34,250 bases of DNA from Verrucomicrobiota bacterium (GTDB lineage Bacteria; Verrucomicrobiota; Verrucomicrobiia; Chthoniobacterales; UBA10450): positions 1 to 34,250 of the forward strand of contig QHPX01000140.1 of assembly GCA_003219195.1 (NCBI GenBank). Reading direction: 5' to 3'. A model generated the notes under the pieces. That model ran no database searches. It was not told the origin of the DNA and worked only from the letters and a program-made list of their open reading frames with translations. Both the position numbers and the translations under genes were made by a program. The stretch's first letter is position 1. Every line of letters starts with the position of its first letter. Positions 3,319-25,711 of the stretch are shown here, in pieces.

Positions 3319-5913
3319 TTGCCTCCGTTTCGCCATCTCAAGACTGAGACGCAATATTTGCGGCCGCCGCCGGGCTACCGTTTCCGGCGCCCGTGGTACG
3401 TCACCCCGCAATTCTACGTCCCGATCGCTATTGGGGCGCTGTTTCTCAGCGTTTTCGCAATCTACGTCTTGATCCTTGTCTCCGATGTCAAAAGCCGGGC
3501 CGCGACTTTCGACCTGAGCAAACTCGAACAAATGGAATCGGCCAGTGTGATTCTCGATCGCAACGGGAAGATCTTTGGGCAAATCTACGTCGAAAACCGC
3601 GAGACGGTGCCTTACGACCAGTTGCCGCGCGACCTGGTCAATGCCGTCGTCGCCGTTGAAGACGCGAAGTTTTATCGGCACAGCGGCTACGATTTGTTCG
3701 GCATCCTTCGCGCGGCGCTGAAAAATTTGGCCGCCGGCCAGGTGCGGCAGGGTGCGAGCACAATTACGCAGCAACTCGCGCGCAACAGTTTTTCGCTCAA
3801 GGAAAAAACATTCCGCCGCAAGCTGCTCGAAATTTTTCTGGCGCGCCGGATTGAGGAGAATTTCGGCAAACAGAAGATCATGGAGCTCTATTTGAATCGG
3901 ATTTATTTCGGCGGCGGGCTTTACGGAGCGGAAGCGGCGGCGCGCGGTTATTTCGGCAAACCGGCCCGTGACATGTCGCTGGCGGAATGCGCCACGCTCG
4001 CCGGTTTGATCAAAAGCCCAAATCGATTGTCGCCGTGGAGCGATCGAGCGGCGTCACGGGACGCGCGCAATTACGTGCTCAGTCGCATGCGCGATCTCGC
4101 TTTGATCGACAACGCGAAATACGCCGGGGCGCAAGGCGAAGATATCGTCATCGGGAACCGGCAAAACGCGCAGGGCCAAACTTACGCGGTCGATTACATC
4201 CGCCAGAAAGTGATCGAAGCCGTCGGTTGGGACCGTGCCATGAACGAAGGATTTCGCATTCACACGACGATTGATGCCGATCTGCAAAAGGTGGCGGAGG
4301 ATTCGCTGCGCAAGAATTTGGAGAAGGCGGAAGGATCTGCCGGTTACGATCATCAGACCTACGCCGATTACGCCGTGGATTTTAAGAAGGCGAAATCGAA
4401 CAACACGATGTCGATCTTGCCGGCGCCGGAATATTTGCAGGGCGCGGTCATCGCGCTCGACAATCAGAGCGGTGGAATTCTCGTGCTCGTGGGCGGACGC
4501 GATTTCGAGCACAACCAATACGATCGCGCCTTGCAGGCGAAGCGGCCGGCCGGCACGGCAATGAAGCCGTTCGTTTACGCGGCGGCCTTTGAAGAAGGAG
4601 AAATGTATCCGGGAACGGTCGTGGAAGATTCCGCGCTCGATAATCGCGCCGTCATGATCGGCGGAACGACCGGCATTTTGGGCGAGTGGGGACCGGAGAG
4701 CGAAGAGAATCGCTACGAAGGCGCGATCACGGCGCGGCAGGCGCTCGCCAGATCGAAAAACGGCGCCACCGTTCGGATCGGCATGGACGCCGGACTCGAC
4801 AAGGTCATGCAACTTTGCCGCACCGCTGGCATTCGTTCCGAACTGCGTCCGTATCCCGCCACGTTTTTAGGCAGCAGCGAGATCACGCTCGCCGAGCTGG
4901 CGCTTGGCTACACCATTTTCCCGAATGGCGGCTGGCGCCCAATTGCGCCGCACATTTTGGAACGCATCGAAGAAAAGGACGGCACGGTCTGGCACGCGCA
5001 ACGGGAGCACGCCAACAGGCAAAATGTCATAAAGAAAGAAACCGCCTACGAAGTTCATTCCTGCCTGGTCGACGCGCTCGAATCCGGAACAGGAAAAGCG
5101 GCGCACTCGCAATTTGGTTTGAAAAAAATTCCAGCGGCCGGAAAGACCGGCACCGCTTACGATTTTACCGACGCGCTTTTTGCCGGATACGACAGCGCGT
5201 TGACTTGCGCGGTCTGGGCCGGGTTCGATAAGCCGCAAAAGATTTATCGCGGCGCGTTCGGTCGCGAGCTGGCGCTGCCGGTGTGGGTCGATGTCATGAA
5301 CGCTTCGGCTGCGCGTTACCCGGCGAAAGAAATTCCGCAGCCATCCACGCTGAAGAAGATCGAGATTTGTTCCCGGTCCGGTTTGCTCGCGACGGACAAA
5401 TGTTATGACGCGGTCAAAAGTGCGAGCGGCGAGTCGGTTCAGAAACGCACGACCTATATGGAGATCGCGACCGAAAAACAAAAGCCGACGCAGTTGTGCA
5501 ATGTTCATGGCGAAGCGGGCGCGCGTCTGGTGCGCGAATTGCCCGAAAGCGAATTTCCCCGCGCGACGGCCGCGGTTGACGTGAAGGATGTGCAGCCGGT
5601 CATCGTGAAAAGCCCCGCCCTGCTCGCGGACAAAGATCCTTACAACTCCACGAAACCGCCGGTAAAAGCAGACGAAGTCGCGGAAAAAGAAGCGGTCCAA
5701 AAAGAAGCACCGCAGAAAGAAGCGGCCGCAAAGACCGAGAATAAGACTACCGACGATGGTAAACCGATTTTGAAAGCGATCCCGGTCGAGCCGCAGGATG
5801 AGAAACCTGTCGAAATCCGACGCGCGCAGCCGGTCGGGCCATTGGATGAAGTGCCTGACGACTCGCTCTTGAAGGCCGCGACGCCGCCTCCCGGGACCGA
5901 TCTGGGCGACTAA
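3319..5913 (+). CDS. Class A penicillin-binding protein (GT51 transglycosylase + transpeptidase), Ser-to-Thr at the SxxK motif
   Basis: This 864-residue bifunctional peptidoglycan synthase has a membrane anchor at about residues 33-55 (PIAIGALFLSVFAIYVLI). The GT51 domain carries EDAKFYRHSGYD (Glu114), GASTITQQLARN and KIMELYLNRIYFGGG. The transpeptidase domain has SKN (Ser479, Asn481) and KTGTA (Lys609). Motif 1, normally GSxxKPFVY, reads AGTAMKPFVY, with Thr413 (ACG, 4555-4557) in place of the nucleophilic serine and Lys416 kept. The C-terminus from about residue 770 is a charged Lys/Glu/Pro/Ala-rich tail. The start is TTG at 3319; no ATG precedes the membrane segment and no strong Shine-Dalgarno is seen. 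The glycosyltransferase half looks intact. Whether Thr413 supports acylation is unknown, so the transpeptidase half may be altered or inactive. Confidence 0.93.
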   Translation: MPPFRHLKTETQYLRPPPGYRFRRPWYVTPQFYVPIAIGALFLSVFAIYVLILVSDVKSRAATFDLSKLEQMESASVILDRNGKIFGQIYVENRETVPYDQLPRDLVNAVVAVEDAKFYRHSGYDLFGILRAALKNLAAGQVRQGASTITQQLARNSFSLKEKTFRRKLLEIFLARRIEENFGKQKIMELYLNRIYFGGGLYGAEAAARGYFGKPARDMSLAECATLAGLIKSPNRLSPWSDRAASRDARNYVLSRMRDLALIDNAKYAGAQGEDIVIGNRQNAQGQTYAVDYIRQKVIEAVGWDRAMNEGFRIHTTIDADLQKVAEDSLRKNLEKAEGSAGYDHQTYADYAVDFKKAKSNNTMSILPAPEYLQGAVIALDNQSGGILVLVGGRDFEHNQYDRALQAKRPAGTAMKPFVYAAAFEEGEMYPGTVVEDSALDNRAVMIGGTTGILGEWGPESEENRYEGAITARQALARSKNGATVRIGMDAGLDKVMQLCRTAGIRSELRPYPATFLGSSEITLAELALGYTIFPNGGWRPIAPHILERIEEKDGTVWHAQREHANRQNVIKKETAYEVHSCLVDALESGTGKAAHSQFGLKKIPAAGKTGTAYDFTDALFAGYDSALTCAVWAGFDKPQKIYRGAFGRELALPVWVDVMNASAARYPAKEIPQPSTLKKIEICSRSGLLATDKCYDAVKSASGESVQKRTTYMEIATEKQKPTQLCNVHGEAGARLVRELPESEFPRATAAVDVKDVQPVIVKSPALLADKDPYNSTKPPVKADEVAEKEAVQKEAPQKEAAAKTENKTTDDGKPILKAIPVEPQDEKPVEIRRAQPVGPLDEVPDDSLLKAATPPPGTDLGD

Positions 5914-24613: not shown

Positions 24614-25669
24614 TCAAACCGCCGGCTGCTGCTGAGTAAGACAGTGAAATGTGCCCAAGCCCCAGATTAATTCGCGACAATCGATTCCGATGACGCGGCG
24701 ATTTGGAAAACACTTTTGCAAGATCGACAACGCGGTTTGATCGGCGGGATCGGCAAATGTCGGGCAAAGCACGCAACTATTTGCGATGTAAAAGTTGGCG
24801 TAGCTTGCCGGCAGCACGAGATCTTCGCGCACGATTCGCCGAGTCGCCGGCAGCTCGATGATGTCGATCTTGCGATTGGCGATCTTCATTTCGCGCAGTC
24901 GCCGCAGATTTTCCTGGAGCGGTCGGTAGTTCGCACTGCTGCGATCCTGGTCGATGACAGCGACGACGGTTCGTTCCGAAACAAAGCGCGCGAGATTGTC
25001 AATGTGCCCGTCAGTATCGTCGCCTTCCGTTCCCTCGCCGAGCCAGAGAATCTCGCTGACACCAAGAAAATTGCGCAACCGCTTTTCGATTTCCTCGCGC
25101 GATAGATTTGGGTTTCGATTTTCGTTTAACAAACACGATTCGGTCGTGAGGAGTGCGCCGGCGCCGTTTACGTCGATCGAGCCGCCTTCCAAAATCATGC
25201 GCGGATAAAAAACGGGCAGATCGAGAAGCTCGGCCATGCGCCTTGGGACGACTTCATCGAGATCGAACGGCGGATATTTATTTCCCCAGGCGTTATAATC
25301 CCAATCGACAACTGCCAATTTTGGATCGGCATTGCGCGCCAAAAAAACAGGACCGTGATCGCGGCACCACGGTTCGTTGGTTGGAATGCGATGAAACGCG
25401 ACGCGGGCAAGATCGATCCCGCGACTGCGGGACAATACTTCGCGCGCTTCGGCTTCGTGCGCTCCGTTTGAAACATTGATGCACACTTGCTCGGACTCGA
25501 TGAGCACTTCGACCATCGCTCGCAGCGCAGGCAACACGCGATCAAACGAACCAGGGAAACTGATTCCCTCGCGCCGCGGCCAGGAAAGCCAGGTCGCCGC
25601 GTGCGGTTCCCATTCCGCCGGCATGCGATAACCGAGTTGTGCGGGCGTTTCGGCGAATTGTCGATCCAT
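24614..25669 (-). CDS. aguA: Agmatine deiminase (PAD_porph family)
   Basis: About 351 residues. Converts agmatine to N-carbamoylputrescine and ammonia in polyamine synthesis; peptidyl-arginine deiminase activity is the family's alternative. Motifs: PAEWEPHAATWLSWP, the substrate-guanidine site TNEPWCRDHGPVF, RMILEGGSIDVNG, EGTEGDDTDGHIDN with the catalytic Asp/His, and the nucleophile Cys343 in GLGTFHCLTQQQPA. ATG 25669 is chosen: upstream residues up to 25699 come from a CAACGTT low-complexity tract. The start codon is fused to a GATCGACAA copy (ATGGATCGACAA). The next polyamine enzyme, AguB, is not in the window. Confidence 0.93.
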   Translation of the reverse strand: MDRQFAETPAQLGYRMPAEWEPHAATWLSWPRREGISFPGSFDRVLPALRAMVEVLIESEQVCINVSNGAHEAEAREVLSRSRGIDLARVAFHRIPTNEPWCRDHGPVFLARNADPKLAVVDWDYNAWGNKYPPFDLDEVVPRRMAELLDLPVFYPRMILEGGSIDVNGAGALLTTESCLLNENRNPNLSREEIEKRLRNFLGVSEILWLGEGTEGDDTDGHIDNLARFVSERTVVAVIDQDRSSANYRPLQENLRRLREMKIANRKIDIIELPATRRIVREDLVLPASYANFYIANSCVLCPTFADPADQTALSILQKCFPNRRVIGIDCRELIWGLGTFHCLTQQQPAV

Positions 25670-25678
25670 CAGAAACAG

Positions 25679-25711
25679 CGAACGTTCAACGTTCAACACT
25701 CAACCTTCAAT
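25679..25711. repeat. CAACGTT low-complexity tract, copy 3
   Basis: CGAACGTTCAACGTTC followed by AACACTCAACCTTCAATG. It is of the same style as the tracts at 3258 and 8176 and again lies just upstream of a minus-strand gene (agmatine deiminase, ATG 25669). Confidence 0.65.

Follow-up and report, generated by a model that had tools for sequence, protein, structure and literature searches.

The class A PBP gene of the window

The window, by which we mean the whole 34,250-bp stretch analysed from a Chthoniobacterales contig, encodes an 864-aa class A penicillin-binding protein (PBP) at 3319-5913 (+ strand); the gene has a TTG start, the exact position of which is uncertain. The protein scores above the cut-off of the PBP1A-family model TIGR02074. 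Sequence and AF2 model agree on an N-terminal membrane anchor (hydrophobic helix, residues 30-62), which is followed in class A order by a GT51 glycosyltransferase (GT) domain (residues 83-257; 3565-4089, +) and a transpeptidase (TP)-fold domain, PF00905 (residues 375-627; 4441-5199, +). The AF2 model has the PBP1A/1B fold, with a mean pLDDT of 79. A gene for a MidA-like methyltransferase (PF02636; 2022-3341, -) lies divergent from the PBP gene; the window's family and part of the rest of the order share this arrangement, which other members lack, and we therefore claim no functional link. Further along, 24614-25699 (-) encodes a Porphyromonas-type peptidyl-arginine deiminase family protein (PF04371), probably an agmatine deiminase.

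An earlier note on this DNA had read threonine at the catalytic serine position of the PBP, and HMMER alignments bear this out. Against Acinetobacter baumannii PBP1a and another PBP1a structure, the segment AGTAMKPFVY aligns under GSxxKPF, placing Thr413 (ACG, 4555-4557, +) at the nucleophile of SxxK; the AF2 model has a helix starting from residue 412, which matches the helix start found at SxxK in PBPs. No other stretch of the domain aligns as motif 1, which disposes of the alternative SxxK that the note had named as a possible refutation. The other classical positions are present in the window protein, as the note had also stated: Lys416, at +3 of SxxK (AAG, 4564-4566, +), the SxN motif Ser479-Lys480-Asn481 (4753-4761, +) and the KTG motif 609-611 (5143-5151, +). 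The note's view that the GT51 motifs look functional gains from the orthologues described below, among which the catalytic glutamates E114 and E171 are invariant and the motifs EDxxFxxHxG, GxSTxTQQ and RKxxE invariant or nearly so. The protein thus resembles PBP1A-family enzymes such as Escherichia coli MrcA and A. baumannii PBP1a in domain order, GT51 motifs, TP fold, SxN and KTG, but its type differs from them in the threonine, in the frequent loss of the lysine at +3 and in a loop at residues 441-460.

A possible objection is that the threonine is a sequencing or assembly error, or that the gene is a decaying pseudogene, given that the source assembly is fragmented and 87% complete. However, threonine stands at this position in independent species and assemblies, encoded by all four ACN codons (ACG, ACC, ACA and ACT), which excludes the base-call error at 4555 that the note had allowed for. 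The open reading frame, a dN/dS well below 1 and the orthologues likewise rule out a pseudogene, and we give this explanation practically no credence.

Spread and ancestry of the threonine type

Threonine was found at motif 1 in 80 of the 81 sequences of one orthologue set, in 35 of 40 further loci, and in every one of the 16 Verrucomicrobiales-type rows (families f14 and f48). Orthologue-level matches of at least 849 bits occur in 109 of the 118 genomes of the order that are at least 90% complete, a count of matches in only part of which motif 1 was read. Carriers within the Chthoniobacterales include Chthoniobacter flavus Ellin428 (L137) and Candidatus Udaeobacter (L126). At the thresholds applied, two complete 0.9-Mb genomes of family f8 of the same order (G043 and G052) yielded no match to a class A PBP. 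These two may be endosymbionts; one YkuD domain was found in G043. Genus g33 of family f14 encodes an M60 protease and GH20 enzymes that match PDB entries 7sci, 8pxu and 6je8 very closely, and for this reason we take the genus to be Akkermansia; AM0627 of A. muciniphila is described in a paper citing 7SCI (PMC9118916). We infer this genus name, as well as the family names of f14 and f48.

The tree searches behind the topologies given here were quick ones. In a tree of 101 rows the threonine group is monophyletic (SH-aLRT 100), and its sister group (support 91) is formed by serine-type paralogues of the same families. On this topology a single clade unites the threonine-type orthologues of the Chthoniobacterales with those of the Akkermansiaceae and of another Verrucomicrobiales-like family in the same class, and the nucleophile position would have held threonine since before the two orders split. 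The lineage-specific variant that the note had offered as one reading is accordingly supported in the form of an old orthologue group spanning two orders, and the orthologue alignment it called for finds threonine fixed across the Chthoniobacterales and the Verrucomicrobiales-like families, save where serine was regained.

What the note had not foreseen is that the variant is a paralogue, standing beside a normal serine-type class A PBP. The window genome also carries this second protein (L002), with GSAFKPFVY at motif 1, and three class B PBPs, all with GSTFK. The serine-type group shares about 40% identity and the same domains with its sister clade; it differs in keeping SxxK, SxN and KTG intact (Ser, Lys, SxN and KTG are retained in 28 of 28 rows) and in lacking the GGxxGILGEWGxE loop. 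A further GT51 protein of this genome (contig C32, L003:319-2856) has a long membrane-like N-terminus and a C-terminal Amidase_2 (N-acetylmuramoyl-L-alanine amidase) domain, and no TP domain.

Motif erosion, selection and the return of serine

The note's observation that the remaining motifs are intact holds for the window protein and needs refining for its clade. Lysine at +3 is kept in 19 of 51 rows from the order and in none of the 16 others; about 70% of the clade, all Akkermansiaceae-type members among them, have T, L, V, F, Q, A, I or G there instead. At least six changes between lysine and another residue are needed. Parsimony makes the ancestral lysine absent or present depending on the cost set for regain, leaving either many losses or a loss followed by regain. 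The SxN site is eroded in many orthologues through Ser to Gly/Ala or Asn to Ile changes, reading G/A-x-N in 20 of the 51 order rows and SxI in 12 of the 16 others. KTG is mostly retained, with its lysine and glycine invariant in the alignment. The TP domain has nonetheless stayed under purifying selection, with dN/dS of 0.04-0.16 (NG86, 12 pairs), similar to the protein's own GT domain and to the serine paralogue. Loss of catalytic residues from a domain under such selection marks it as a probable pseudoenzyme.

The clade also has conserved features of its own. There are 22 positions that are at least 90% conserved in the threonine type and not common to the serine type, and ten of them fall within residues 441-460, the loop DNRAVMIGGTTGILGEWGPE of the window protein (4639-4698, +). 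Its clade consensus, DNRxVMIGGxxGILGEWGxE, replaces a shorter segment of the serine-type paralogues. Conservation is 93-100% at Thr413, Lys480 and Lys609 and in the loop, whereas Lys416 drifts. Such a pattern, in a domain under purifying selection, might mean that the domain has been re-tooled, with Thr413, the loop residues D441, R443, E456 and E460, and the lysines K480 and K609 catalysing or binding something non-classical. A purely structural role would explain the same pattern, however; nothing indicates a changed substrate, and the loop is modelled at low confidence (block pLDDT 67 and 59). We consider re-tooling improbable.

Serine, always encoded by AGC, was found at the nucleophile position in two Chthoniobacteraceae lineages: six genomes of genus g94 in the Chthoniobacteraceae-like family f6 (G276 and G279-G283; loci L188 and L235-L239), and L148. 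These proteins have Lys, SKN and KTG intact and keep the loop of the threonine clade. When the two trait columns were masked, L148 paired with the threonine protein L244 at support 100, and g94 was placed within f6, at 97 and 100, among threonine proteins (the tree includes five of the six g94 genomes). A tree in which the threonine rows are forced into one exclusive clade is worse by 157 log units (p-AU about 1e-52). The tree and the AU test thus reject an exclusive threonine clade, and with it the idea that the AGC proteins are an ancestral relict lying outside, so that reversion is required. AGC is one step from ACC and two from TCN, the codons that the serine paralogues use. The simplest account of these sequences is one loss of serine and two regains, both inside the Chthoniobacteraceae, one of the two regaining lineages being a soil genus, g94.

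The regains bear on a second alternative, namely that Thr413 is a working but slower nucleophile, aided by Lys416 where that is present, and that the protein still has D,D-transpeptidase or carboxypeptidase activity and reacts differently with beta-lactams. Serine returned only in Chthoniobacteraceae that retain the lysine, so selection can act on catalysis there; threonine is nearly invariant across the clade; and the window protein retains Lys416, SKN and KTG. Set against this are the absence of the lysine from most of the clade, its replacement by L, T or Q in the window's close relatives of the same family, and the SxI reading of most SxN sites in Akkermansiaceae-type members. On balance a slow nucleophile seems to us unlikely.

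Proposed role of the protein

We favour loss of transpeptidation, because threonine is fixed in an old group and the general-base lysine has changed repeatedly. We propose, with a probability of roughly 70%, that the protein is an ancient threonine-type class A PBP paralogue, a GT51 glycan polymerase with a conserved pseudo-transpeptidase domain; the glycan polymerase that the earlier note had suggested thereby gains support, the GT51 motifs being invariant. In our proposal a duplication preceded the split of the Chthoniobacterales and Verrucomicrobiales-like lineages. One duplicate would have retained full D,D-transpeptidase chemistry; in the other the nucleophile would have become threonine, after which many descendants saw their lysine and SxN residues decay. 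The retained TP fold may position or gate the GT domain, acting as a structural element, a docking module or a stem-peptide sensor, and the new glycan would be crosslinked in trans by the serine-type class A PBP, by class B PBPs or by L,D-transpeptidases. In the window species, where Lys416, SKN and KTG are kept, the TP domain would be dead or strongly slowed; the return of serine in the two Chthoniobacteraceae lineages presumably restores transpeptidation.

Two considerations speak against polymerisation as the sole function. The window protein retains three of the four classical positions, and the serine reversions imply that the site can stay near-functional in lysine-retaining lineages, so residual threonine-based activity is possible. 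Moreover, threonine is conserved beyond what an inert position would need. A bolder version of our proposal, which we hold to be quite unlikely as a whole, is that the invariant threonine, the loop and the two conserved lysines sense or process the stem peptide and so gate the polymerisation of glycan destined for L,D-transpeptidase crosslinking, and that serine transpeptidation re-evolved from that state in one Chthoniobacteraceae genus.

The division of labour that we expect has an engineered counterpart in E. coli PBP1b S510A, which polymerised lipid II and supported growth together with an L,D-transpeptidase (PMC5089857); glycan strands made by a TP-dead class A PBP can therefore be crosslinked by another enzyme. 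That protein is a laboratory mutant, whereas the threonine type is natural, clade-wide, old, further decayed and later reverted. Monofunctional GT51 enzymes (MtgA/Mgt) likewise polymerise glycan with no D,D-transpeptidase, but they are wholly without the TP fold that the threonine type keeps under purifying selection. We found no published description of a natural class A pseudo-transpeptidase in open-access papers.

L,D-transpeptidases, which are abundant here, are possibly the crosslinkers of threonine-type strands. The window genome (2.8 Mb, incomplete) has 12 YkuD domains; the median is also 12 in 25 threonine-type genomes, versus 6-7 in four Ser(AGC) genomes, and it is 5 in 11 class members without a strong threonine-type match. 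We treat this association as a lead only, since the threonine genomes are one clade and the comparison is confounded by phylogeny and genome size.

Single-chain proteins of 1287-1380 aa that join GT51, a degenerate class A TP region, PBP_dimer and an intact class B TP domain were seen in Verrucomicrobiae families f13, f24, f26, f50 and f52, a lineage separate from the threonine clade; about a dozen of the 189 genomes from the class gave matches. They are encoded at L282:426-4478 (-), L283:224-4270 (+), L284:182-4321 (+), L285:289-4413 (-), L286:363-4223 (+), L287:468-4334 (-) and L288:57-4061 (+). Their class A TP region reads GALLQPF or similar, the other motifs being gone, while SxxK, SxN and K[TS]G of the class B domain are intact; by sequence, a dead class A domain has been joined in cis to an apparently active transpeptidase. 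This architecture fits the persistence of class A TP folds as non-catalytic modules.

In genome surveys the presence of a class A PBP is enough for it to be counted as a bifunctional synthase and beta-lactam target, and Akkermansia has been scored as having a canonical class A PBP (PMC8406291). If our proposal is true, these bacteria, which are common in soil and gut, would devote one of their two class A PBPs to glycan polymerisation, and that enzyme would probably be no target of beta-lactams. Threonine-type PBPs would also be natural test objects for what a TP domain does for its GT domain apart from chemistry, and they offer a rare traceable case of loss and regain of an active-site nucleophile, with a codon record running from TCN through ACN to AGC.
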